Shown piece after piece: positions 11,818 through 49,045 of a stretch of 64,000 bases of DNA. Every line of letters begins with the position of its first letter. Position 1 is the first letter of the stretch. The notes below the pieces were generated by a model. The model had not been told where the DNA came from. It was given only the letters and a program-made list of their open reading frames with translations, and did no database searches. Source of the DNA: Clytia hemisphaerica. Its lineage: Eukaryota > Cnidaria > Hydrozoa > Leptothecata > Clytiidae. Location: contig CACVBU010000913.1 of assembly GCA_902728285.1 (NCBI GenBank), forward strand, positions 602,441 to 666,440, given 5' to 3'. A program made the position numbers and the translations under genes.

Positions 11818-12152
11818 GCCGGAAAATGCCGGAAATCGCCGTTTTTGCAGATTTTCATTGGATTTTTTCCTTATATTTCTATGTTTTTCACACAAAAACA
11901 TTATTGATAACAATGCTCACCATCAAGTATGATTCAATTGTCAATAAAACTGATTTTTGTGACCAGAACTTCACTTTATTTTTTCCCTACAACCCTTCCC
12001 TCTCTAATCAATGATGAATTTATTACGTTCTGCATTTTCTGACTGATTTTTTTTCACTTTTCTCCTCGCATTGCTATCTAACTTTCATCATCAAGTAGTT
12101 GCATTCAGCCTCTAGCTTGTTATATTTGCCTTCAGTACAAAGAAAATATAAA

Positions 12153-12758
12153 ATGGTTTTAGTAGGTGTGGTTGGTGGTACTGGTGGATGTGGAGTGCCA
12201 CTCATTAATTATCTTCTTGAAAAAGGATACAGTGTCCGAATGCTTGCAAGGACACCAGAGAAAGTCACTCAAATAGACAACAAAGAAGTTACTGTCATTA
12301 AAGGTGATGCTTTGAATGAAGAAGACATTGCTGAAGTTTGTCAAGATGTTGACCTTGTCATCTCATGTGCTGGTGGAGGGCCTGGTGCACAAATCATGGA
12401 AAAACTGGCATCCAATATTGTAAAAGCTAAACCAAAACGTTGTTATTTCATAACCTCATTAGGGATGGGAGGAAGCTCGATGACTATCAATTTGTTACTT
12501 GGTTTTTTCCTTGGACGTCAAAAGATTCTTGATTATGAAAAAGCTGATGCGCTGATGCTGAAGAATAATTACACAGTGGTTCGACCCTGTCATTTAAAAG
12601 GAGAACCAGTCGGTGATTATTGTGCTACTTCAGACACAGGGATGTCTTCCAAAGCCATCTCTAAAACTGATGTTGCTTTATTTTTGTTAAATTGTGTCGA
12701 AAATCAAGAATGGGATGGAATGCCTGTGCAATTGTATAATGCAGCCTGCAAAAAATGA
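12153..12758 (+). CDS. NAD(P)-binding Rossmann-fold protein (NmrA/atypical SDR-like), 201 aa
   Basis: A single coding exon runs from ATG 12153 to TGA 12756-12758. The N-terminus VGVVGGTGGCG carries the GxxGxxG dinucleotide loop (residues 8-14) after a first beta strand. It is followed by RMLARTPEK, where the arginines would suit NADP(H), then VTVIKGDALNEED, the strand-4 motif DVDLVISCAGGGPGA, and YFITSLGMGGS. This is the layout of the NAD(P)H-binding/biliverdin-reductase-B-like family, usually about 200 aa. I see no classical YxxxK active site, as expected for atypical members. The substrate is unknown; a flavin or quinone reductase role is a guess. An acceptor-like CCTTCAG ends at 12135, leaving a 17-nt leader before the ATG: either a 5'UTR intron or a trans-splice site. 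Confidence 0.85.
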   Translation: MVLVGVVGGTGGCGVPLINYLLEKGYSVRMLARTPEKVTQIDNKEVTVIKGDALNEEDIAEVCQDVDLVISCAGGGPGAQIMEKLASNIVKAKPKRCYFITSLGMGGSSMTINLLLGFFLGRQKILDYEKADALMLKNNYTVVRPCHLKGEPVGDYCATSDTGMSSKAISKTDVALFLLNCVENQEWDGMPVQLYNAACKK

Positions 12759-14658: not shown

Positions 14659-15079
14659 CCAATGTCTTCTATGATTTCTTATGATTCGTGCTTTAATAAT
14701 TGGATTAGATTTTGTAAAACTTTGGCTTTTTTTGGGAAAACGAATGAATTTAACTACCTTAGCCCTTTTTTACTGTTTCAGTCCTTATTGGCATCATTTT
14801 TGGACCTGTTGACCTTAAGGACTTGTGTTAAATAGGCCTTTGAAAAATAGGCCACAAAATTGTATTTATCACAGCAATTTTGACTGCTTCTACTCAATTT
14901 TAAAAATTTAATAATTAATTCATCTTGATTGTCTAGAAGAGATAATTATTTATTCACTAAAAAAATCATTCAATTTTAATTACATCAATGTCTTTAACAC
15001 TTCATCTCTTTATTTTCAGAAATATTAAACATTTCTTAACACAAAAAAATTCAATATTTACAAACGAAAAATCGCTAAA

Positions 15080-15082
15080 CTG
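15080..15082 (+). promoter_or_regulatory. EIF4G2: probable non-AUG (CTG) start codon of DAP5
   Basis: The frame opens after a TAA at 15026-15028 and has no ATG until codon MHDVT in exon 2, just before the MIF4G domain. CTG at 15080 has A at -3 and G at +4 (AAACTGG) and is followed by codons for ESS, resembling the ESA after the start of human DAP5. Mammalian DAP5/NAT1 is known to start at GUG, so a non-AUG start fits the family. ATC at 15071 is a weaker alternative. Confidence 0.6.
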
Positions 15083-18000
15083 GAATCCTCTTACTCATTA
15101 CAATCTTTCCCAAGTGATGCACCCCGAAGACAGCATGGACTGACCAACTCTAATTTTTCAAACGGTCTAAAGAAAAATAGGTTAGTATTTTTTTTGTTAT
15201 TTACTTACCATGATAAAAACAACAAATGTGTAAACCCCTCGTTTAAACTTTTCAACTTTCCTATTTTCAATTGTTATTATAGTTTTGATGCTAGTTCTTC
15301 ACCCAGGCATACATCGGAAAATGGAATAAAAAGATTTTCAAATCGAGTGAACAATCAAACTGGTTTTGAACCAAAGAAAAGAGATTCAACTCAGAAACCA
15401 AAGAGATGGGTTCCTTCTCAATTGATGCACGATGTTACAGATCGCAATGAATTGATTTTCCGCAGGGTCAGAGGGTAAGTTTTTAACAAAATGTTATCAA
15501 CTTCAGTTGAGCTAGAATCTGACTATATCTGTATGTATGTATGTATGTATGTATGTATGTATGTATGTATGTATGTGCGTCTCTCTGTCTGAAAACTTGA
15601 GGGCAGTCTGCAGTCATAAAAAATCGTCCGTTTTGCCTGAAATTTGGCACACTTGTTCGCTCCTTGGGTGAATATTTTAGGGTGTTTTTTCATTTTTCAA
15701 AAATTTTGATTTTTGGGCTATGATGAGTTAAACGTGGCTAAACCTTGAGGGCCTTTTAGACTGATCAAACTTAGCTTATCAATTTTACAATTGGGCCTCC
15801 ACACAATGCAAATATTCCTGAATCTCGGTTGAGCTCTTTTTCCACTATCAACAGTTTTATTAAAACCATGACGTTTATAAAGGCATTCAGATGTTTTTTA
15901 TCTTTTCGAATTAATGGTCTTCTGTAAATGGTGGTTTATTGTTTATGGTTATTTATTATTAGCTGATGTCGTATTTCATGTTGTTTTTCAGCATATTGAA
16001 TAAGCTGACACCTGATAACTTTGACAAGTTAAGCTACAACCTTCTGAATATTGGAATTGACAAGACTGTTTTGAAAGGAATAATTATCTTAGTGAGTTTC
16101 CTTTGTATTTGATTTTCACTTAAAATTCTTGGGATAATCCATGTAATATGTACGCAGAACTTTTCCTTATATTTGACACCCTTGTACGCAAGAAATAACA
16201 CCATTTAAACAATAGATGTGCGCTTTTGCTAAACTCCCTCTTCCCCATTCATTGCTGATATTGCGTACGTACTATAAAGATAGCCCTTGACTTGGGTGGA
16301 CTCATATTTTAGCCTGTTTTGATTGGATAAAGTATGATAAAAACAATGATTTATGCTACGGTCAACATAAAGTAGTTTTTTAAACAGCAGTGGTTCATCA
16401 GAAATTTGATTTGAACGCTTCAATATAAAGAAGATTTTGTGAAAATTCAAAGGGCAATTGAATTTGGTTAGAAACCTATCAAGAAAAGTTTGATTTAATG
16501 CTACATTGATTTCATTTCAGATTTATGAAAAAGCTATAGACGAGTCCAAGTACTGTAACTTGTATGCTCAACTTTGTTTACGATTACGCCACGATGTACC
16601 CAATTTTGATGACCCTGTCACCAAAACAAACGTAAGCGTTGATTGCTAATTTATTTTGTGATTTTTGTTGGTGTGATACTTTTTAACTTAACTTTATTAA
16701 CTGATCTTTCTCAAGTTTAACATTAACATATCACTTTGTGTAAAGTCTCGTAGAATCGTTATCAACTTTACTATATTGATTAGCTAAGGTCTTAAAAATC
16801 AGTTGTCAAAGTTATCATATGCTTTATACTCGTTGATTTGAATTTGATGTTTACCATATTCCTGAGGCTAATCTTGTCCAATCTCATCTTGTCTCAAGAG
16901 TTGACTTTACCTAATTCGAATTTGAACGAGGAATTCTATTTGTTCGAGTTACTGAGAGATTCAAATTATAGAAAGTATTTTGAGAGGGTTACTTCTTGAT
17001 GGAGACTGGAAACAAGTTCGAATTAATATATTAAGGTTCAAATGATAGAAGTTCGAATAAGCGAGAGTTTACTGCAGTGTAGGATTTTAAATTAAAACCT
17101 TTTTGATTCTTGTCCAATTAATTTAATTTTCCTATCATAGACCTTTGTGCGGCTGCTGCTCAGCAAATGCCAAGAAGAATTCGAGACAAGATCTAAAGCC
17201 TCTTCTGCTTTCGACAAAAAGGACACGGACCTTTCTCCCGATGAGAAACAGGATAAAATGGTGGCAAAAAGAAAAATGTTGGGAAATATTAAGTTCATCG
17301 GTACGCTTTTTATAAGAATATGAGAGTCAATCTTGAGAGAAGCCAAAATTTTCGGGGACAATTGTTGCCTGGTGACATTAGCTGGCCAACGAAGAAATTT
17401 TCTCATATTTTGCACCTTCCAGGCACCATCAAACGCTATTTTTGATAATAAAAATAGGTTTCTGTTCTGTTCCAGTCTGTTCTATTAGTCTGCAAAAAAT
17501 GTCCCTGTTACAGGGTCCATGACATGTAGTGGTTTGTACGAAAATTTTGTTCTTTTAAATCGTAAACAAGTACTCTAAGGTCCCGAATAGTAGGGGGGGT
17601 CTGAATAAAAGGGGGGGTCCGAAATTTTTGCAAAATATAATAAACGGGGGGGTCTGAATAAACGGGGGGGGGTCTGAAAATATTTAGGTAAATAAAGGCT
17701 AAAATCAGGCTATTTAGAGCAAAATAAGGGTCCTTCTCTTTGACAGCTGAAAATATTCTTAAAAACAAAAAACGGGGGGGTCCTAATAAGAACGGGGGGG
17801 GTCCGAAATATTTTCGAAAATTAATAAGCGGGGGGGACGTCTATTCGGGAGTAAGTAAGAAGAAGACGCACAATATCAAAGTTAAATAGTCCTGCTGCTG
17901 AGGTCGATAAATGTTTCATTTCGTGACACACATCTTAGAAGTAACTTTTTTTGGTGGAAACTCGCGAATTAGTATATTTAGATTCCAAAATCAAAAAGTT

Positions 18001-21000
18001 AACGAATAATTGATTTTTGGGGGTCTTCAAATTAAAAAAAGACCTATATCACATGATAGAGCTCTTCAAACTGAGCAAAAGAGTGTATTACACCAAAGTC
18101 CCAACTTCTCTAGATCAAAAGTTATGGGCCTATTTGTGGTCAAGAACTGATGGAAAACAGGGAATTTCCCCATAATCGGCATTAATTTATGCAAAATTAA
18201 ACACCTTTTTGACCACAAAATAATAGGCCTGAATGAATTTCCAGGCCTTGCAATTTTGCCTGGAAACGCAAAAAATCGCCAATTACTCGTTACTTGCACG
18301 ATAATATCGTGGAAACTTTTTGATTTTGGAATCTACATATACTAATTCGTGAGTTTCCACCAAAAAAAGTTAGTTCTAAGATGTGTGTCACGAAAATTGT
18401 TTTTTAGCCACTTTTTTCGATCTCAGCAGCGGGACTTAAAGTCTAGAACTTTTAATAAGGCAATATACATTTTTTTTTGTTAATTTACAGGAGAACTTGG
18501 TAAGCTTGAACTGTTACAAGAAGCAATTCTACACAAATGTATTCAACAGGTGAGAAAAAAATTAGTGTTTTTTCTGGACGAGGTTTAAAAATCGTCCAAT
18601 AAATCTCAAATGTAGCAAAATTTAATTAGATAATCGGCCAATTTTATGCCGGCTCTTATTGCGCCAAAGCTCATTCTTTTTCAGTTTTTAGCCATGCCCT
18701 AATTTAATTCCGATCCCTTACGTCGGCTACGCCAGCAACGATAAAATAACACCAATAAGAACTGGCGTAGAAACAGCCAATATGGTAATCTGGATGATTA
18801 AATTAACCTCTTTGGTACATTTGACTCTCCGTCATAGATATAAATTCGAACATCGAATTGATCATGTAAAATCTTTATTATCTAATTATCAATGTACTTT
18901 CTTCCGAATCAAATAATGTACCATTGTTAGTCCTATAGTAGATCAAAGTAGTTTCTAAACTAAATAATACTTTTATACAATACTCTAGTTGCTGGCTAAG
19001 AAAAAGCGAACATCATTGTCTGAGATGGCAGAGGATATCGAATGTATGTGTCAAATAATGTCAACCATTGGTCGAAGATTGGACACGCCTAAAGCGTTAA
19101 ATATCATGAACCAATATTTTGACCGTATTGAAAAGCTCTCTACAAGCATGGAATTGCCCTCCAGAATCAGATTTATGTTGAGAGACGTATTGGAACTTAG
19201 ATATAACAAGGTATGTTTCCCTAGACTAGTTAGCTAAGCCCGTATTCACAAGGCACACGCGGCTTACGGCAATATAGCAAGGATATAGGATTTTGAAGTT
19301 TGTCTAAGAATACTTATCAGTTATTCGGTCAAATTTACCATCAGATCTATCCTATTGACTGAATCAAACTGGCTTAAATTTCTAGGCTAATGTCCCCTAC
19401 CTATTCTAATAGAAATTTTGTCGCAAGTTTAATTTTAGAATATTTTTAAGCTCAATGTTTTATTCTATTTTTATAAACAAAAAAAATTGTTTTGGATGTG
19501 AAATGGAACAAATTTGATGAAACGGATTTTTTTAGGAAAGAAGATATTTTAGTCAAAGCGCTTTTCTTATCCTGTTTGTACGTAAGGCACCAGTGGAAAT
19601 TTATTTTTAAGTAAAAAAAAACTTGTGGCATTTCAAAAATTCTAGAGAAACAACGCTACTGTTATGTTACTGAGTTAACAAATTCATTTTCTGTAACAAT
19701 TAGTTAATGAATGATTTTATCTATTTCTAAAACAAGGGAAGAAATATTTTAAGCAAGACGCTTTCCCTATACTGTAGTTCATGTAGTACTTAATGCATTT
19801 CAAAATATTCTAGAGTATCATGCTATTGTTAAATCACTGAGTTAACAAATCCATTTTCTGTATCAATTAGTTAATGAATGATTTAATCTTTCTTTTTTTA
19901 GTGGGTTCCTCGACTAAATCAAGAAGAGAATGGCCCACGATCTGTATCACAGATGAGATGGGAGGCTATGGGGGTAAATAAACCATGTTTAACCTCTTTC
20001 ACAAAGTTGAAAACACGCTACCACTGTTGGAAATTATTTTAAGATGACTTTCGGGGATTTTCAAGATTTCCTTTTGGAAAATTCTACATAATTTTACTGA
20101 GTCACACATTCTCCGTGATTTCGCAAAGACAATATTGTCATAGAATAAGGAATACAGCTGTTTTTTTGATAGTAGAAAAAAAGTTTATATGAATGTGCAG
20201 AAATAAGAATTACTGTCCAACTATATTCACTCAGGAGATTTGGGTGACAGAGCAAGAGGATGCATTTGTATATTGTGGATTGTCATTGATTTTCTTTCCC
20301 CTTTAGATGATGATGCCGCCTCCCTTTCCATTCTTCCACCCTGGAATGCCTTTACCGCCAGGAATGCAAATGCCGCCCAACATGCCGGCTGGCGGGATGC
20401 CGCCTTTCATGCCGAACGGTGACATGTCCACCATGCCATGGTTTAATGATCAAGTGTTAGCGTGCGGTGGCATGATTTCAAGTGACTCCAAACTACCAGC
20501 AGATTTTCATGACGAGACTAAAGATATTTTCGGTAAACCAGTCAACAAGACTCAATCTCTAGCTCCAAAACAACATACACCAATTTCCAAACCGATTATG
20601 AAACCTGATTTGTTTCAACCACAGTATGTGCTATTACTTTGTTTTTCTCTGCCTTCTCTTCTTTTGAGATTTTAACCGTGAAAGCCACACAAACTGTATG
20701 TTTTAATAAATCCATTCTTCTTGAGAATAGCTTGATATTACTATTAGATTTTCCTGCCTTCTCCTCGTTTGATATTTTTGACCTTCAAAGTGTGACACAC
20801 GCCGTATGTTTTAACAAATTCATTCTCCTTGAGAAAAGCTTGAATTTAAGATTGGAAAAGTAAAATTGGTTAGTGTGATATATATATATATAGGAAATCG
20901 AAAATACTTTATTGCTAGACTGTTTGCATCCTCTAACGAACACGATCGAATGCGTGCTTCTTTTAGAGAGAGGGTGCTAAGTAGGCCGGTAGTAAATCCT

Positions 21001-24000
21001 CTTTCCAGATATCGTTGTTCACATGACTAAAGGTTAAATCTCAAAATTAGTATCTCACAAAATTAGTACCTCAAAAAATTTAAAGTTTTACTGTGGTAGT
21101 CATCTTTGAGATTTAGATTGCCCTTTTTTCAAGTAGAGGAATAGTCTATGTTTTTATATGACAAAAAGGCAGAGCAGAATTGTAATATCTCCAATTTTCC
21201 AAGACACTGAACCTTTAGTCAAGTGGACAACGAATATGCCGCATTAGTTTCGTGGAGGTCTGCGATTTAGACTATTTGATCCCCAAATTATTTATCTCTT
21301 GGCTTCAAGAAACGAATTTTAATATTTCTTGTTATACTTCAGTTACATGAAATCAAAAGCCAACGGAAATGGACCGCCATCCAGAATTAACGGTAACTCA
21401 ACCGCCGCTAGTAGTAATACAGCACCATCATCTACTCAACTCAATGGTGCTCAAAGTAAAGAAAAAGATAAGAAACCAATCAATAAGAACAACCCTTGGA
21501 ACGTTGACCCGTTCATGCCGAATTTCTCGAAACCTTCGATTAGTTTGATCACACAAAAAGAAGAAGCTAGCAAACATGCACCACCGAATGCCAGAAATAA
21601 CTCAACTCCTCCTCAAAGAATCTCACCGCAAACAAGTAATACATCTCGTTAATTATATTGTTCTAAAGAATCACAAAACTGGAGTCGTTTAGAATCCGTC
21701 TAATAAAATAATATGGGTGTTATACGATAATAATATCATTGTTACGGGATAATACCAGTTTGTATAAACTACAATTTGTCCTTTCTATTATTTTTTGCTT
21801 ATTTTCTACTATGTCTGAATGAGTCGTCTCGCATGCTAAACTAAAAAAATAACTTTTTTATTAAAATTGAATAGAATCAGACATTTCACAAGCGCCGTCT
21901 AGCTATTTTCAAGACCTTAGAAGACGGGGGCGCTCTTTTGAAATTTTGGACTAGCCATTTCAGGCTGCTATAATTTTGTCTTTTGTGGCTTTTTATACTT
22001 AAAAGATGGTTTAATCTCTTCATCAGACTTTAAACTTAGGTCCGACGTTCTTTAATCGGTGGTAACGATTGAAGGGCGGCGCGAAGTAGAGAAAATATGG
22101 TAACATTTTGAATATCCTTTTTGGATTTTCTGTTTATATTTTAGTCCCTCGAAATTCTGCTGCCAACACATACCAAAAGCAACAGACACAGCAACAACAA
22201 CAAGCGTGGAAGAAAAACAACCAAGAAGTAAGACATTTAGTGTTACAGTATTTGACTTTTCTTTTCTAAGAGATGATATTATTCTTCTGAAACTTTCTTT
22301 ACATAAAGCTGTGAAGATGGTGCGAGTACAGCGGAGTCTCTTTAACTCGAAATTTCCTTAACTCGAACGAATTTGCATTCCCTGTCTCGTGCGTTTTCGA
22401 GTTATGGAGACTGTTTTTACCTTTTACCATACGGTGATTTAACCGCGACGCATTTCTTAGTTGGACACTGTCAACAAGAAGGTACAAATCATGCACCATG
22501 CCAAAAATGGCTTAAAATAAGGTTTTTGTAATAACTTGCCCAAGTTACATAAAAAATTAGGGAAAATCTCAGAAAACCTCTATATTAATATTAGAAAGGG
22601 TAAAAGATGGTTAAAATCAATCCAGGGGGTTAAATGGCCCAAATATGGCTAATTTGTTGTCCAGACAAAAAGATTGTCCTAAAAAGGGCCATTTAGGTTT
22701 AGTTTATACCAAACCTAGCTTAAACTAAAACTGAATGGTTGTTTTAACTCCTAATAGTAAAATGACCCACTTTTTACGTTCTTGGGTCCCAAAATAGGAC
22801 AATAAAGTTGTCCATAATTTTGACCTTGATATTATTTTTACAAAAAGGACAATTTATTGTCCTTTTTGGGACCGAATAACCAAAATTTTCTACCTGAAAA
22901 TTAATTCATACAGTTTTGTGCAAAATTTTAGCTTAAATAAGCTGATAGTTTTGGCAATATTTTCGAAAAGATAAAAATGGTTGAATCCCTAGTGTTAAAG
23001 CACAAAAAGTGGTTGATTGAAGCACAAAAAGTGGTTAATTAAAATACATTTGCCTTTAGGACAACAGATTGTCCACGAGAGGGGCCGTTCAACGATTTTA
23101 ATTTTAATTATCTTATGTTTGAGGTATTTCGAGCCTGATCTGTAAGGATCTTGAATGAGATTTTGTTTTAAAGTTGATTTTCATGACAATTTTAATTGCC
23201 CATATTTTACAACATTTAGAACAATTTATTGTCCATTTTTGAACCTTTTTACAAGATTTTAGAATTGGAATCTTGTTGTAGGATAGTGTTCTACATGTGT
23301 ACCAAATTTTGACTTGATCGGAGCACCCTATCAAGAGTTATTGATCTTGGATAACTCATTATCCTTTCAATTAGGACAATTCATTGTCCTTTTTAGGACT
23401 GCAGTTCAAAAGCTTATATCTCTTTAAGTATACCTTTTACAGTTACGGGACCAGCATGGGTCCGAAGACGGACCTTTTAACTTAACCATGGGTATCAATG
23501 TAGGGCCCAGTAGACATTTATGAGTCTGTAATTTTCAAAACCAGTCAGGGGTGTAAAGATGGTGCAAAAACAGCCATTTTTTGTACCTTCTTTTTGACAG
23601 TGTCTAGTTAGCAGAAACACCTGGTAAAATATCGCTTCAGTGTTCTTTCTCACTCCGATTGAAAGTTTTGCTTGACCACTTTTACATCCTCTTGTAGGGG
23701 GCAATGAAAGCCGTTTCTATAATCTATCACTACCGTTAAACGAGTTCCTGGGTTGTTAACGGAAGAAAATGAGAAAGTTAAACCGTTACAACAATTTACA
23801 ATTTTTAAGTTTCAAACTTTTCTTGATCATTTCTTTCAGGTCAGTTTGAGACCAGCTTCATCATTGACCAAGAAAGATGATGGAAAATCGAAAGCTGACG
23901 TAAGAATATTTTCTCTCATCAAACAATCGTTTGTCCTTCTCCTTCCAATTGAAAGGGATATTCCATATTCCAGATAATGTGGGTAAATAAACCTCCCATT

Positions 24001-27000
24001 TTGGGGAAATTAATTTTTGAAGATCAATCTCCCCTGGATTTTTAGCGAAGTTTTTAAGACACCCTTCTGGATTTTTGTCAATTTTTTTGTAGTACACCTT
24101 CTATGAACTTTGATTTGAGAGACATTTTCAAGAGCTTTAAAGGGACATAAAAGTATGAATTTGATTTTGATTGTTCCAATTTATTGTTTTACAAGTTTGT
24201 TTTGGACACGTGATTACAATTGTTCTCTTTAAGACACTTGGTTCGCGCAATGTTTACATTTTACTACTTTTATGTCCTTTTAACACAACGGTGGTTGTAG
24301 ATTATGCTCTGTTTTTATCATAATTCTTAGGAGCTATCTGGTAAGCAATTCACAAATCTCACCATTAACGATAAAACAAACAAACCAAAGAAAACTGGAC
24401 TTTCCAAATCTGATGTTGACAAGAAAATTGTAAGTGGATTTCTATTCATGTATGATATGCACCACTGCAATGACTTCACGAAATTATGCAACTTTTCTGT
24501 TTTTGTTCCACCCAATACGTCACTTTTTCAATTGTTTAAGTGACGTATTGAGCTGAAAATTTTAGAAGTTCTCAGAAGACTCTCCAGTGGTGCATATCTT
24601 GAATAACTTTATTCATGATATGCACGACTGTAATGTCTTCTGACATTACGGCATGGAACCAATAGCTCATTGGTTGGAAGTGACGTAAAAGCAGTCAATA
24701 CGTCACTTTCAACCAATCAGCTATTGGGTGGAACGAAAGACATTGCAATGGTGCATATCATGAATAAGAGATAAAATGCTTAACATCGATGAAAATACTG
24801 TTGTCCTGTTAATCGGGCTGTGCATTGAATTTCCAAGATTCTTAGAAAATGTGCAAATACCCCCTGGAAAATGGCAAGATTTGCAAAAGAACTCTTGGAA
24901 AAATTCTTTCCTTACCTTAGAAGTGAGGGTGGACGAGCTAAAATCAGTCTTTTACCCCCTGGAAATTCTTCTCCAATTACCAAATTGTTCTTTTATCCCA
25001 TGTATGGATATAAAATGAAATGGCTCATTTCGCTCGCTAAAAGATCATTACTGGAATAGACAGGGACCCGTATACTTACGATATTCTAAAGAGCTTCAAG
25101 ACTATAACGGAAGCAAAAAGGAATCGAAACAAAAAATATTGATATTTAAAATGCTTGGTTTTCAAATTTGAATTGTTTTTTCACAGGTGGAAGTTAATGA
25201 AAGCCATAAGAAAGATGAGGACACAACGAAAGCATGCAACGATCTCCAGTCACTTGCCACAAATTTGAAATATTCCAAAATGGTAGCCAAACAACTGCTT
25301 ATCTTTACATCATCACAAAATGAAGAGGAATGGGCACGACTTGTTCAATTGATCACGCAGTGTGTTGAGAAATCCATTTTCTCGGAAGATACGCTCGTCA
25401 ATGTATGAAAATTCGTTTTCATTGCATCTCTTTAGGAAAATTCTTTACATTATGTAATGTTCTTTCCAATATTATTACTAACAAGATGCTCCAACTGCGG
25501 CCTGAATCGTATTCTTCGAAACAACTACTTGAAGTGAATAGAGGACTAATTTGAACTTTATCTCTTTTATTCGAACTAAATCTCAGTCTCCATCAAGGTT
25601 TAAACCCTCATTATACTTTCTATTACAAACCATTTCCCTTTCGATTTCTTCGGATTAGCGAGAGACAAATGTAGTATCGAAAATGAAAGCTAATTGGGGG
25701 CTAATTTTTGCTGGCACTATAATCTGACTTTAATCGTGTTTTTTGCTATTTTTGGTAAAACTGAAAACTAAATACGAAATCAATCTTGTAACTAGAAATT
25801 TGTCAAAACCACAAAAATATAGTTCCCTCAGTTGAATTATATAGTTATTGTTTTTTTTTTGTCATAGGCGTACAATCTGCTGTTAGATGATATCAAGGTC
25901 ATCGAAAGTGGAAATGGAAAGAACTTCATGGCTCTCATCGCTTCCACAACGGTTGAAAAGGTAATTTCGAGAGTTTCTCTTTCCATGAAAATATACTTGC
26001 AACAAGAAACATTCGAATTTTGGTTTCAGTGTCTTCTTTCTACTGGTTATTTAGTTGACGCGCATCCTTGTTATGGCCGTACATGAATATTCAGTAGGAT
26101 ATGATTTGCGTGTTTTAAGCGGCTGAGCTTAGTAGCTCCTTTTCCGCTTAGGCTTGATTTATATTTCGAGTGAAAAGGAAAAGTGTCAACTCTCGAAGTG
26201 TAGTTTTTTACAAAAGAAATTCAAAATTAAAAATGGAAACATTCTGTTGGTCGTCATTAACCAATTAAGTACCTATAATAACCGTAGAGGTTTCCAGTTT
26301 GTTTAAATAAACTGGGTTCTTCCAGAAAATGTCAGTACATGGGTGGTGGAGGATATATTGCCTGGGGGTAGCGACAAATCATCAAAATTTGCCTTGTCCG
26401 GGGGGGGGGTAAATTTGCTCTGTCCGGGGGTAATTTGGGTTGTCTGGGGGATCAACTGATGCTTGTCCGGGGGGTAAAACCCGTTGTCTGGGGGGCCAAA
26501 AGTCACTTTGCCCGTTGGGTAAATCACTGAAAATCGTTGTATCCTCCACCCCCCATATTCAATTTTTTTGTGGAAAAGCCCATTACGTAACTAACACCAT
26601 TATGGAAGCAAACGTTGGATTTGCGTAAGGCATTGGATCGCGTCTACAAATTCGAACATTTGCTTCCAAAATGGCGGATTTCCCTTAAGTTATGTACGTA
26701 ACTTTAGTAAAACTTGTATTTATGATATTTACCATTGAAATCTCTTCCGATATTACATCACAGACAAACCCAACAGCTGACAGGTTTTAAGCGACGTAAA
26801 ATTAGTCAATACGTCACTTGCAGCCAATCAGCTATTGGGTCCGTGATGTAATGTCAGAAGACATTACAATAGTGCATATCATGACCAATACGGCAATTTT
26901 CTTGATAGGATTGGATCAAGCTATCGACAGTAATGGAAAGTTTTGAAGACGGTGCTCATTACCCTGCACCAATGAATTGTCTCTCTAACCTACACAAGTC

Positions 27001-29681
27001 GAAAGGAAAGGTAAGTGCTCTCCTATCGGGCGTCAATAATCTTTGAAAAGTCATTTTACAGTGGACTTTCCCTAATTCGAATTTCCATCACTCAAATCTT
27101 TCTATAACTAAACCTCAATTCGAAACCTTCGCCAGATACTCTCCATAATTCGAATCTCTCTGTAATTTTAGCAAATTAGACTTGCAGTTTGTAGTTTGAG
27201 TTCGAATTAGCGAGTGTTAACTGTTTTGTAAACGGTTTCCCTTTTTTGTATTTAATTGTTCGAGTTGTAGAAATTTCGAGTTATTAAGTAAGGTTTTATA
27301 ACGCATTGCTAACTGAAGGGACCATAAAGCTTATTCGAGTAAAGGCGACGTTCGAGTTATAGAGGTTCAAGTTAAAGAGAATCCACTGTCAAAACATATT
27401 GCTGATGTAAATAGCCGCCTTTAGAGTTTTACGTTCGAAATTGTATATTTTTCTAGGATTGGTTAATGTCAATGCTAAAAAAGCAGAAGATTGATTGCAA
27501 AAAAATCTTCCCAAAAGATGAGTGGAGTGATAATGCTATCATGCAAGTGGCTCAAAATATGGTACGTTTTTTTAAGTTTCACCTTCTAAGAAAATATTTT
27601 TTTTTCACATATTGAACGAGCATCTCTTATTTGAAATGTTCCAAAATTTGTGAAAATTCATTCCCACATTATTCTCATAGGAGATGACCTTCTTGTTTCC
27701 ACAATTATGTTTGAAAGAAGAACTGTTGAAAATGATGAAAGAAGGAGCCAACGAAGATGAACTTATTCAATGGATAAAGGTAACTTCCGATACTTCAAAT
27801 CATGAGTACGATTTGTTTCGCTCAAACGTTCACCCCTTCCTTTTTGAAAATCAAGAGAGCTTTTTCTTTTTAAAGGACATTGTTGAACGTATCTTTCACC
27901 ATTTGTTTACAGCGGCATTTTCAAAACAAAAAAAAAACAATACTCTCCTCTTACCGTGCCACGCGATTCTTTTGTTGATTCGCTTTGTCGGCATTGAAAT
28001 TAAAGTAGCGCGCCTCCTTTCTATATCGTTAAATTGAACATCTTTGAGAATTTATCCCGTTTCTTTGTGTGAATTTTCTGATTATTTGGAAAAGTTTTAG
28101 AAAAGGGGTTTAGCTTTTGAGTACTTATCTCAACTAAGTATCTCCGTTTATATCCACAGGATAACGAAAATGAATTAAATAAAAAGCAATTGGTTCATTT
28201 GGTAGTCACGTGTTCAGTCACCATAGCAACTCAAATAACATTCGAAAATGGTGGTGATCTTCAACAGAAGCCGGACAAAGAAACACAAGAGCTAGAGAAA
28301 GAGATTTTGGGGAGGTTGAACGGTTTCCTTCGACAAATGATTGGCCCTGAAATGTGTGATCAATTGGAAGCAGTTTATGCTTTGCAAGTCTTCTGTCACG
28401 ACAAAGATTTCCCTAAAGGTTTGATGACATCATTTTTTTACTTAGAATTTCGTGATATTCATGACGTAATGTTTCATACGGAAGCACCGAAATTGCCCGG
28501 GCTTTTGTCACTAGTTTTATTGCTTACCTCATAACAATCAAACGCGCCAAAATCGCAAATATTTGGATAAGTGCTTCGATGCTTCCCCTTTTTGTCATCT
28601 TGGCGCTAAGTTGGTTCAAGATATTTTCTATTTCATACTTAAAGGTGGCACTCGTGGGAAAAAATTCCCTGAACACGTTTTATCGTCCACACTCCCTATC
28701 TTTGGGTCAAGTTGAACATTTACAAGAATTTTTGTCATTGAATTGGTCGTTAACTATTCAAACAAAAACTTTTATTATATTTTTCTAAAGAACGCGTCAT
28801 CTCTATTGTTTTGAATAACCAATTACGTGAGCATCTTGTAAAAACTTCAACACAACTGCTATCTTTCGTTTTCTTTTCCAGAAATGTTGCTTCGAATGTT
28901 TTTGTGTTTCTACAACATGGAGATCATTGATGAGGACGTCTTCTTGAAATGGAAAGAAGATATCAATGATTCTTATCCTGGTAAAGGAAAATCTCTCTTC
29001 CAGGTAATTCAAGTTCATTCGTATAAAGAGTACAATCTTTGATGTTCGCATTTGAAAACCCCTAATAGTGTTACGCAGACATAGTAGCTGTGGTGAATTT
29101 CTCTAATCTTCAAGGGACAATCATTCAAATCGAAAGATAGATTCTAGGATGGTCGGGAAACAATCAAATGAATAGCCTAATTTATTCCAAGTGGAGTAAA
29201 GCATAGCTTTGACCCCCCTTTTTTAATTGGGGAATGCCTATTTTTTTTAGCTTTTGTAGGGGGAGGTACCAAGATTTGCCAAAAAAACTGGGGGATGGGA
29301 ATGTAGGGGGGGATATAAGAAAAGGGTTTGGAAATTTCGGTCAATTTGATCAATGCTAATGTTCAGACTGTTTTAATATTTACCACCAAAACACAAAAGT
29401 GTATCCATGCAGATAGATAACAACGCTATTATATTGTTATATATTGTTATATTTTTGGCTTGTTACTGTATGATTTTGTATATGTATATGATGATAAAAA
29501 CACGAAGCGAAGCATTTCATAACGAGCAGTTGCTTCAATTTTTTTTGTGTGTTAAGGTTGATTCTACAGTGCCATTATATTTTTTTTCTCTTTTTCACTC
29601 TAGGTGAACAATTGGTTGCAATGGTTAGAAACGGCCGATGAAGAAGAAGAGGAAGAAGAAAATGCTGATGATGCAGAATGA
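15080..29681 (+). CDS. EIF4G2: eIF4G2 / DAP5 / NAT1, eIF4G-like translation initiation factor, about 980 aa
   Basis: Twenty-one coding exons join in frame: 15080-15180, 15283-15474, 15992-16091, 16521-16631, 17141-17300, 18491-18549, 18989-19210, 19902-19973, 20307-20623, 21343-21635, 22145-22227, 23840-23899, 24331-24429, 25187-25402, 25868-25960, 26909-27010, 27457-27561, 27681-27779, 28160-28418, 28882-29003, 29604-29681. Residues about 90-315 form the MIF4G domain (RGILNKLTPDNFDKL, LGNIKFIGELGKLELL, EDIECMCQIM), which binds eIF4A/eIF3 in the family. A Met/Pro-rich linker is at about 340-375. An MA3-like region spans about 624-760 and the W2 domain about 800-975, ending in PGKGKSLFQVNNWLQWLETA and an acidic tail. 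No eIF4E-binding N-terminal extension is present, as in DAP5, which drives cap-independent translation in the cytoplasm. The human protein is about 907 aa. The donor of exon 19 (GGTTTGATG) is weak. The start is non-AUG (see 15080-15082). Confidence 0.93.
15531..15576. repeat. GTAT microsatellite
   Basis: About eleven tandem GTAT units lie in DAP5 intron 2, soon after the donor at 15475. Confidence 0.9.
16890..17085. repeat. Tigger/pogo-like repeat in DAP5 intron 4
   Basis: TAATTCGAA, TTCGAGTTA and AATAAGCGAGAGTTTACTGCA words match the repeat family at 3470-3655 and 27055-27395. Confidence 0.45.
17571..17853. mobile_element. G-run MITE, TACTC family, copy 1 (DAP5 intron 5)
   Basis: The ends TACTCTAAGGTCCCGAATAG and CTATTCGGGAGTA are inverted. 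Between them, six runs of 7-9 G recur, most preceded by AATAAACG, AATAAGCG or similar. Related to 36317, 51985 and 58299. Confidence 0.75.
17889..18435. mobile_element. fold-back element, about 110-bp arms (DAP5 intron 5)
   Basis: The left arm from GTCCTGCTGCTGAGGTCG to about 18000 and the right arm ending CGATCTCAGCAGCGGGAC are reverse complements, including TTCCAAAATCAAAAAGTT and its mirror. The loop is about 310 bp. Non-coding. Confidence 0.8.
19536..19890 (+). repeat. tandem duplication at the 3' end of DAP5 intron 7
   Basis: Two imperfect copies of about 180 bp share AAGAxATATTTTA, CTGAGTTAACAAATxCATTT and CAATTAGTTAATGAATGATT. The second copy ends in the polypyrimidine tract and acceptor used at 19901. 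Confidence 0.7.
20639..20870 (+). repeat. tandem duplication of about 115 bp just after DAP5 exon 9
   Basis: The two units share CTGCCTTCTC, GTATGTTTTAAxAAATxCATTC and TTGAGAAxAGCTTGA. The array begins about 15 nt after the donor at 20624. Confidence 0.7.
21009..21237. mobile_element. short inverted-repeat element (DAP5 intron 9)
   Basis: The ends ATATCGTTGTTCACATGACT and CAAGTGGACAACGAATAT, each joined to AAAGGTT/AACCTTT, are inverted. The interior repeats AAAATTAGTA. Non-coding MITE-like. Confidence 0.6.
21715..21850 (+). repeat. dispersed repeat shared with 36957-37125
   Basis: Shares ACCAGTTTGTATAAA-like text, TTGTCCxTTC, TTTTGCTTAT, GTCTGAATGAGTCGTCT and GCATGCTA with the later copy in WDR5 copy A. 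Confidence 0.6.
22650..23400. repeat. cluster of GGACAAT...ATTGTCC palindromes (DAP5 intron 11)
   Basis: Near-palindromic AGGACAATTTATTGTCCT-like words recur at about 22660, 22795, 22850, 23050, 23220 and 23372. Intervening text is AT-rich. No ORF. Confidence 0.6.
24137..24283. mobile_element. 147-bp MITE (TTAAAGGGACATAAAAGTA ends)
   Basis: TTAAAGGGACATAAAAGTA on the left mirrors TACTTTTATGTCCTTTTAA on the right. It lies in DAP5 intron 12; a TA target duplication is possible. Confidence 0.75.
24448..24606. mobile_element. MITE, GATATGCACCACTGCAATG family, copy 2
   Basis: It begins about 20 nt after the DAP5 exon 13 donor. The ends ATGATATGCACCACTGCAAT and CCAGTGGTGCATATC are inverted. The interior closely matches 3313-3466. 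Confidence 0.85.
24611..24766. mobile_element. MITE, GATATGCACCACTGCAATG family, copy 3
   Basis: The ends ATTCATGATATGCACGACTG and AATGGTGCATATCATGAAT are inverted, with internal AACCAATxAGCT and TGACGTA words. It sits end to end with copy 2, sharing a GAATAA-type junction. Confidence 0.85.
26317..26558. mobile_element. G-run MITE with GGTGGAGGATAT ends (DAP5 intron 15)
   Basis: The left ATGGGTGGTGGAGGATATAT mirrors the right TGTATCCTCCACCCCCCAT. Between them, seven G runs alternate with TTGTCCG/TTGTCTG words. Partner of 612-762. Confidence 0.7.
26719..26886. mobile_element. MITE, GATATGCACCACTGCAATG family, copy 4
   Basis: The right end ATTACAATAGTGCATATCATGA and interior CAATACGTCACTTGCAGCCA match copy 3. 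Its right border lies about 22 nt upstream of the DAP5 exon 16 start at 26909. Confidence 0.75.
27055..27395. repeat. Tigger/pogo-like repeat in DAP5 intron 16
   Basis: It opens with ACAGTGGACTTTCCCTAATTCG and closes with AAAGAGAATCCACTGT, an inverted pair, with many TTCGAATTA/TTCGAGTTAT words between. This is the best preserved copy of the family. Confidence 0.6.
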
Positions 29682-35488: not shown

Positions 35489-41860
<6,372 letters not shown>

Positions 41861-48277: not shown

Positions 48278-49045
48278 AAACAAAAACTATTTATAGTCAA
48301 TAAACTATCCTTAAACGTCAAAAAGACTAAATACATACTTTTTTGTAAACATAATAAAATTGATGACTTACCTCTAAAACTACCGACATTGACCATTAAC
48401 AACACTGAAATAAAACGAGTTTACGATACAAGCTTTCTTGGGGTTATTATTGACGAATCTTTAAACTGGAATAAACATATAGCAAACGTCGAAAATAAAA
48501 TTGCTAAAAATCTAGGAATATTTTATAAAGCTAAGCAAGTGTTGGAACTTGACTCACTTAAAAAACTTTATTTTGCATTTATACATAGCTATCTAAATTA
48601 TTGTAATATAATATGGGGTAGTACTTTTAAAACCGCCCTTAAAAAGCTTTTCAGTAAACAGAAGCATGCACTACGTATCATGTTTGGTGTAAACAAATTT
48701 AGTTCGGTTACCTGTCGCTTTAAAGAGATAGGTGCGCTTAATGTTTATCAGCTAAATATTTACCAAACAATTGCATTTATGCAAAGCGTCAAAACTAAAA
48801 CTTGTCCAGGTTTATTTACAGATAAATTTCCTGAAATCAATCACAAGTATCGAACGCGGTATTCAAGAAATGCATTTAAAATACAAGATGCTAGATTGAA
48901 GGCCAAGAGATTCGCTATTAACTATAGAGGGCCTTTTATGTGGAATAATATTTTAAACAATGACTTAAAGGAAACATGTACAAAAAAGTCAAAGCTTTGT
49001 TTCTTAAAATCTGTCAAAAACTACATTTATCAATCTAGACATTGA
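48278..49045 (+). pseudogene. LINE reverse transcriptase C-terminal part (jockey/CR1/L2-type), intact frame, 5'-truncated
   Basis: An uninterrupted frame of 255 codons has no start of its own. It begins NKLSLNVKKTKYILF, the block after the RT active site, then SFLGVIIDESLNWNKHI, FAFIHSYLNYCNIIWG, QKHALRIMFG, and closes with RGPFMWNNI and a basic tail before TGA. This is the typical C-terminal third of a non-LTR retrotransposon ORF2. The absence of stops suggests a younger insertion than 42640-45120. The 5' truncation fits target-primed reverse transcription. The two LINEs differ enough to be separate families. Confidence 0.8.

Follow-up and report, generated by a model that had tools for sequence, protein, structure and literature searches.

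The gene for DAP5/NAT1/eIF4G2 of the hydrozoan cnidarian Clytia hemisphaerica is complete within the analyzed stretch of 64,000 nucleotides (the window), and its translation very likely begins at a non-AUG codon. The start is probably a near-cognate, with the CTG at position 15080 the foremost candidate, which would give a protein of 980 amino acids. The initial annotation had proposed that this gene begins at a CTG and not at an AUG, and sequence and comparison with other animals both lend strong support to a non-AUG start, with CTG 15080 as the best candidate.

Gene identity and structure

In order to assign the gene, the predicted protein was compared with public proteins and domain models. 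The best match was a C. hemisphaerica protein of 899 amino acids (P0001; 99% identity over 92% of the query, which was approximate at the end of exon 10), and residues 82-980 of the gene model are identical to it, letter for letter across the last 899 codons. The Pfam domains MIF4G, MA3, and W2 occur in the order found in DAP5; MIF4G (162.3 bits) and W2 (74.0 bits) score above their cut-offs, while MA3 falls slightly below (23.0 bits against 23.2). The MIF4G domain is nearer to human eIF4G2 (4iul, 298.6 bits) than to eIF4G1 (174.8) or eIF4GII (171.2). Furthermore, as in DAP5, no eIF4E-binding motif (Y-x4-L-hydrophobic) was found in the first 95 residues, upstream of MIF4G. All 20 introns of the gene have GT-AG boundaries, and the frame is continuous from exon 1 into exon 2. 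The features of the gene that bear on its start are as follows.

15018 to 15019, + strand: strong splice acceptor AG (TTTATTTTCAG) that probably marks where the leader exon starts, belonging either to a cis 5'-UTR intron or to a spliced-leader site
15020 to 15079, + strand: leader ahead of the CTG, with no ATG in any frame, no AG, and an in-frame TAA at 15026-15028
15080 to 29681, + strand: whole predicted DAP5 coding region, 21 exons and 980 amino acids counted from the CTG, stop TGA at 29679-29681
15080 to 15082, + strand: CTG, proposed start, in the context GCT AAA CTG GAA
15080 to 15180, + strand: predicted coding part of exon 1, LESSYSLQSFPSDAPRRQHGLTNSNFSNGLKKN plus a split codon
15101 to 15112, + strand: QSFP, the first residues conserved with the hydrozoan protein P0006, from codon 8 counted from the CTG
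15117 to 15143, + strand: out-of-frame ORF of 8 codons (MHPEDSMD), opened by the first ATG that the mRNA contains past 15020
15181 to 15282, + strand: intron 1, 102 nt, GT-AG
15283 to 15474, + strand: exon 2, containing RWVP at 15404-15415 and the first in-frame ATG
15425 to 15427, + strand: first in-frame ATG, start of the public 899-amino-acid protein, with T at -3 and C at +4

Further downstream, the exon-10 donor of the public P0001 model lies at 21635/21636 (compared with window positions 21343-21647), and an alternative GT donor 12 nt downstream preserves the frame. Intron 2 holds a TATG microsatellite at 15530-15575, and intron 5 carries repeated G-runs with TCTGAATAAA-like spacers at 17586-17836, a 24-nt unit present in five copies (at least 67%). 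Elsewhere in the window, an exon-like stretch at 36470-36916 on the - strand matches the WDR5 beta-propeller (51 bits, E 1.6e-13; whole-domain cut-off 250), and a 255-codon open frame at 48278-49045 on the + strand gives the impression of the end of a retrotransposon reverse transcriptase, with no Pfam match. An Rfam search returned 0 matches and a tRNA scan found 0.

Reading frame and leader exon

From 15020 through exon 2, TAA 15026-15028 is the sole stop in the DAP5 frame. Downstream of it, the first in-frame ATG is 15425 (MHDVT), 12 residues ahead of the Pfam MIF4G match. The initial annotation had described the frame as closed by this TAA and as free of ATG before MHDVT at the MIF4G edge in exon 2, and the sequence agrees on both counts. 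Given a leader that starts at 15020, no in-frame AUG lies upstream of the conserved N-terminus. Five ATGs precede 15425 in the spliced stretch, all out of frame (15117, 15135, 15288, 15321, and 15406), and three of these (15135, 15321, and 15406) combine a -3 purine with a +4 G. The ATG-free leader was rejected as evidence in itself, since 32% of shuffles of 97 nt also contained no ATG. RNA structure that would aid the start was likewise rejected, as 15020-15180 folds like its shuffles (z 0.13).

The 5' edge of the leader exon was evaluated with an acceptor profile built from the 20 acceptors of DAP5 itself, whose leave-one-out scores run from 0.9 to 12.0. On this profile the AG at 15018-15019 reaches 9.99, and 18 of the 3328 + strand AGs in the window are as good or better, itself and the training sites counted. 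No AG occurs between 15020 and 15112; therefore no normal acceptor can bring in an upstream ATG while keeping QSFP. TAA 15026 remains in the mRNA whether the 15019 acceptor is used in cis or in trans, and an AUG supplied by a spliced leader was rejected because translation from it in the DAP5 frame would end at this stop. Hydrozoans add spliced leaders to their mRNAs (passages of PMC11067881), as described for Hydra (passages of PMC3273482); a Clytia spliced-leader sequence was looked for and none was found. The single-exon NAD(P)H-binding gene at 12135-12758 on the + strand (Pfam NAD_binding_10) has a layout like that at DAP5, with an acceptor-like CCTTCAG (score 6.3), a possible trans-splice site, ending 17 nt before its ATG at 12153.

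Exon 1 read as conserved protein

To establish whether exon 1 resembles protein, the 73 residues from the CTG to just ahead of KRWVPS were aligned with other N-termini and tested against shuffles. Alignment with the hydrozoan-type P0006 (QSFP..PR..GLTN..FS) scored 63 against a shuffle mean of 30.8, with 1 of 5000 shuffles as good, and alignment with P0005 scored 51 (3/5000). The other two frames of the exon 1 DNA scored 17 and 21, values reached by 1617 and 636 of 2000 shuffles, respectively. It is very likely, judging from this frame-specific likeness, that exon 1 is translated. The P0006 alignment begins at codon 8 (15101) and not at the CTG itself; initiation should therefore fall between TAA 15026 and 15101.

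Alignment of the Clytia N-terminus was not significant with those of scyphozoans (P0017, 390/5000 shuffles as good; P0019, 1256/5000), the coral-type P0073 (547/5000), P0014 (373/5000), P0016 (2873/5000), human (1571/5000), mollusc (4691/5000), or arachnid type (3338/5000). It was unconvincing for P0002, P0003, P0004, P0007, and P0008 (1312, 1915, 96, 154, and 171 of 2000 shuffles as good), most of which start later in the database. The database sequences of P0005-P0007 begin with M, from which the underlying codon is not readable. The N-terminal protein searches yielded 7 proteins (E up to 1) and 8 proteins, with Hydra, Hydractinia, and sponges outside the comparison, and one scan of viral contigs contained no hydrozoan relatives. 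The alignment of the DAP5 5' end across relatives that the initial annotation had suggested as a check succeeded for the hydrozoan P0006 and for P0005 and gave no significant result for scyphozoans and corals; the sponges it had named lay beyond the proteins compared.

Candidate start codons

Three in-frame near-cognates lie ahead of QSFP, namely ATT 15056, ATC 15071, and CTG 15080. The CTG has A at -3, G at +4, and A at +5, and is followed by GAA TCC TCT (E S S), as the initial annotation had read it; it is thus a near-cognate with a purine at -3 and G at +4, and its codon is not the GUG of vertebrates but would serve the same role. The accompanying claim that ESS resembles the human N-terminus did not hold as an alignment, and the resemblance to human 'ESA' as such was rejected as not significant. 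The informative similarity lies in what surrounds the start, K-[start]-E. Passages of PMC9082881 give (C/A)(A/G)(C/A)(A/C/G)CUGGAU as the context predicted to be best for non-AUG starts; the Clytia T-AAA-CTG-GAA comes close to it, with differences at -4 and +6.

Chance occurrence was estimated from 20,000 shuffles of 15020-15180, in which the 24-codon in-frame stretch was tested. An in-frame CTG with A at -3 and G at +4 arose in 0.6% of shuffles and any of CTG, GTG, TTG, or ACG with a purine at -3 and G at +4 in 3.2%, while any of nine near-cognates in good context arose in 17% and so is not rare by chance. Codon context alone is suggestive, not decisive, and the argument for the predicted start depends chiefly on N-terminal conservation and on the lack of an acceptor.

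The start position in other animals

The comparison set comprised 122 proteins among the matches listed (best 120 per list), 73 of which carry GG[AVPI]S or GSAS ahead of MIF4G. Seven with fewer than 12 residues before the motif were left out (P0019, P0049, P0059, P0066, P0099, P0103, and P0113), and the remaining 66 were anchored on the GG motif alone, giving 31 distinct 9-mers. A [KIT][LVT][DE] pattern, described after the rows had been viewed, occupies the start position in 27/31 distinct peptides and 60/66 proteins among these listed matches. The residue seven before GG is V in 32 proteins, L in 21, and T in 7, with I, K, or T on its N-terminal side and D or E on the other; M stands at this position in none of the 66. 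Among the rows with a species name, vertebrates and two echinoderms have V; molluscs, a brachiopod, and a scyphozoan have L; and a scorpion has T, as do rows resembling it. Every codon for I, K, or T has A as its first base, and every codon for D or E starts with GA, so the pattern places A at -3 and GA at +4/+5. L, V, and T are what would be expected of CUG/UUG, GUG, and ACG, respectively, codons deduced here from residues, the Clytia codon alone being read as DNA. The initial annotation had regarded non-AUG initiation as an ancient property of the gene with the codon free to change, and the V, L, and T residues bear this out at the protein level.

Six proteins do not fit the pattern (P0017, P0026, P0028, P0029, P0055, and P0118). 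P0017, of scyphozoan type, has L-DQR and is three residues shorter ahead of the motif; P0026, P0028, and P0029 belong to Mytilus coruscus, and the first exon differs in their models; P0118 has an earlier chance match of the motif, and its N-terminus also contains AAKVESAIAEGGAS. Clytia does not have the GG[AVPI]S anchor, and because its N-terminus is unaligned outside Hydrozoa, its match at the start position rests on context more than alignment.

Four of the left-out rows (P0066, P0099, P0103, and P0113; MESAIAEGGAS) have M where other vertebrate rows show V, indicating that their source writes M for GTG. The coral-type rows P0041, P0073, P0076, P0090, P0119, P0121, and P0122, from this same source, read M-DGR, and P0073 aligns with the scyphozoan-type L-DQRGG (0/2000 shuffles as good). 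The coral DAP5 start may be ATG, in a source where ATG and GTG are indistinguishable.

Alternative explanations

Instead of chiefly using CTG 15080, initiation could fall mainly on the near-cognates ATC 15071 or ATT 15056, with or without the CTG. Both lie in frame between TAA 15026 and QSFP, ATC 15071 has A at -3 and G at +4, and human EIF4G2 has a minor upstream AUU start (figure legend of PMC9082881). However, CUG and GUG are the commonest and most efficiently used near-cognates according to passages of PMC10325891, ATT 15056 has T at +4, and the K-L-E context like that of other animals occurs only at the CTG, which makes this reading unlikely. An AUG start would be obtained if an upstream ATG exon were spliced to an acceptor inside exon 1 (an AG ending at 15114 or later). 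This is the case, an acceptor between 15029 and 15180, that the initial annotation had named as contrary to a CTG start. Exon 1 does contain AGs beginning at 15113, 15128, 15132, 15171, and 15179, none earlier, and a pyrimidine-rich stretch precedes the one at 15113. Yet the three that were scored (15113, 15128, and 15132, at -0.4, -7.0, and -9.9) fall below every real DAP5 acceptor, such splicing would drop QSFP, which is contiguous with the rest of the protein in P0006, and the public model offers neither an upstream in-frame ATG nor an N-terminus from an upstream ATG exon. An AUG reached in this way is quite improbable.

In the public record, the protein starts at AUG 15425, which would leave exon 1 untranslated; this is the first in-frame ATG, and a start there would keep the Pfam MIF4G match whole. 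Nevertheless, it is the sixth ATG of the spliced leader, in a poor context (T at -3, C at +4); of the five ATGs ahead of it, three combine a -3 purine with a +4 G. The frame upstream of 15425 is conserved as protein in a hydrozoan. A start at 15425 would also lose RWVP, encoded just upstream. Among the 122 proteins listed, 102 have at least 30 residues before the RGILNK motif and are long enough to judge; [RKE]W[VITEAN][PA] is found in 100 of these, P0109 has RWLPS, and P0104 has no W, so that W-x-[PLA] is present in 101/102. True initiation at AUG 15425 is accordingly given a very low probability. Least probable by far is an assembly error concealing an ATG or a frameshift: one wrong base could make CTG from ATG, but other animals likewise show a residue other than M at the corresponding position, and exons 1 and 2 are in frame. 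Should the CTG be the start, the public Clytia protein is truncated, missing 81 N-terminal residues and with them the W-x-P motif.

Proposed mechanism and comparison with known systems

The leader exon would begin after the acceptor at 15019, through a spliced leader or a 5'-UTR intron, placing the presumed 5' end of the mRNA. A 43S complex scanning from the leader start would meet no AUG up to 15117. Met-tRNAi would then pair with the CUG in AAA-CUG-GAA and part of the complexes would initiate, both the use of Met-tRNAi and the efficiency being presumed, while the remaining complexes would continue to the out-of-frame AUGs.

A tentative and rather doubtful proposal is that the non-AUG start predates the cnidarian-bilaterian split and has persisted for its role as a sensor, through negative feedback of DAP5 on its own near-cognate start. 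DAP5 would tighten start-codon selection, so more DAP5 would mean less initiation at its own near-cognate; selection would hold the near-cognate and its good context (A at -3, GA at +4/+5), and the codon would drift among CUG, GUG, and ACG. The direction of this feedback fits, because human cells depleted of eIF4G2 by knockdown make more use of near-cognates (passages of PMC10325891). EIF1, BZW1/2, and eIF5 control themselves through weak starts (passages of PMC5823381 and PMC9082881), and by analogy we infer that a near-cognate start would give DAP5 similar negative feedback, with the exact codon free. The term 'autoregulat' is absent from the available text of PMC10325891, and DAP5 autoregulation is not claimed in the passages of PMC10325891, PMC5823381, and PMC9082881.

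Taken from sequence comparison, these results suggest that the odd start of human DAP5 is older than the jellyfish-human split. If true, the non-AUG start dates to the common ancestor of cnidarians and bilaterians, suggesting that a weak start, rather than GUG itself, is the conserved property. Other invertebrate DAP5 models merit the same N-terminus check, and the Clytia case would open the feedback idea to tests in a jellyfish.

According to passages of the review PMC9977666, citing Takahashi 2005, eIF4G2 starts at GUG in mammals and other vertebrates, and passages of the same paper report non-AUG codons for the orthologues of Halocynthia (an ascidian) and Drosophila. GUG initiation of EIF4G2 reaches ~30% of the AUG version, and exclusive non-AUG initiation is called rare and its preference over AUG unexplained (passages of PMC9789052). 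The orthologous vertebrate gene (NAT1/p97/DAP5, EIF4G2) is like that of Clytia in having no in-frame AUG ahead of the MIF4G region, a K-[NUG]-E start context with A at -3 and GA at +4/+5, and, past the start, a short ORF opened by an out-of-frame AUG, which in human EIF4G2 lies downstream of the GUG (figure legend of PMC9082881). Clytia differs in its CTG in place of GTG, in an N-terminus otherwise without significant alignment, and in an in-frame stop 54 nt upstream of the CTG. NAT1 of Halocynthia and Drosophila shares with Clytia a non-AUG start in the same gene outside vertebrates; both, however, are bilaterians, and their codons are not given in the passages of PMC9977666. EIF1, BZW1/2, and eIF5 resemble DAP5 as factors affecting stringency that have deeply conserved weak start signals on their own mRNA (passages of PMC5823381 and PMC9082881), but EIF1 and BZW use a poor-context AUG and eIF5 poor-context uORFs, unlike the good-context non-AUG codon of DAP5. 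Searches of the open-licence literature turned up no paper on a cnidarian DAP5 start. This kind of start is already known in bilaterians, and Clytia is a non-bilaterian member with CTG, new here.
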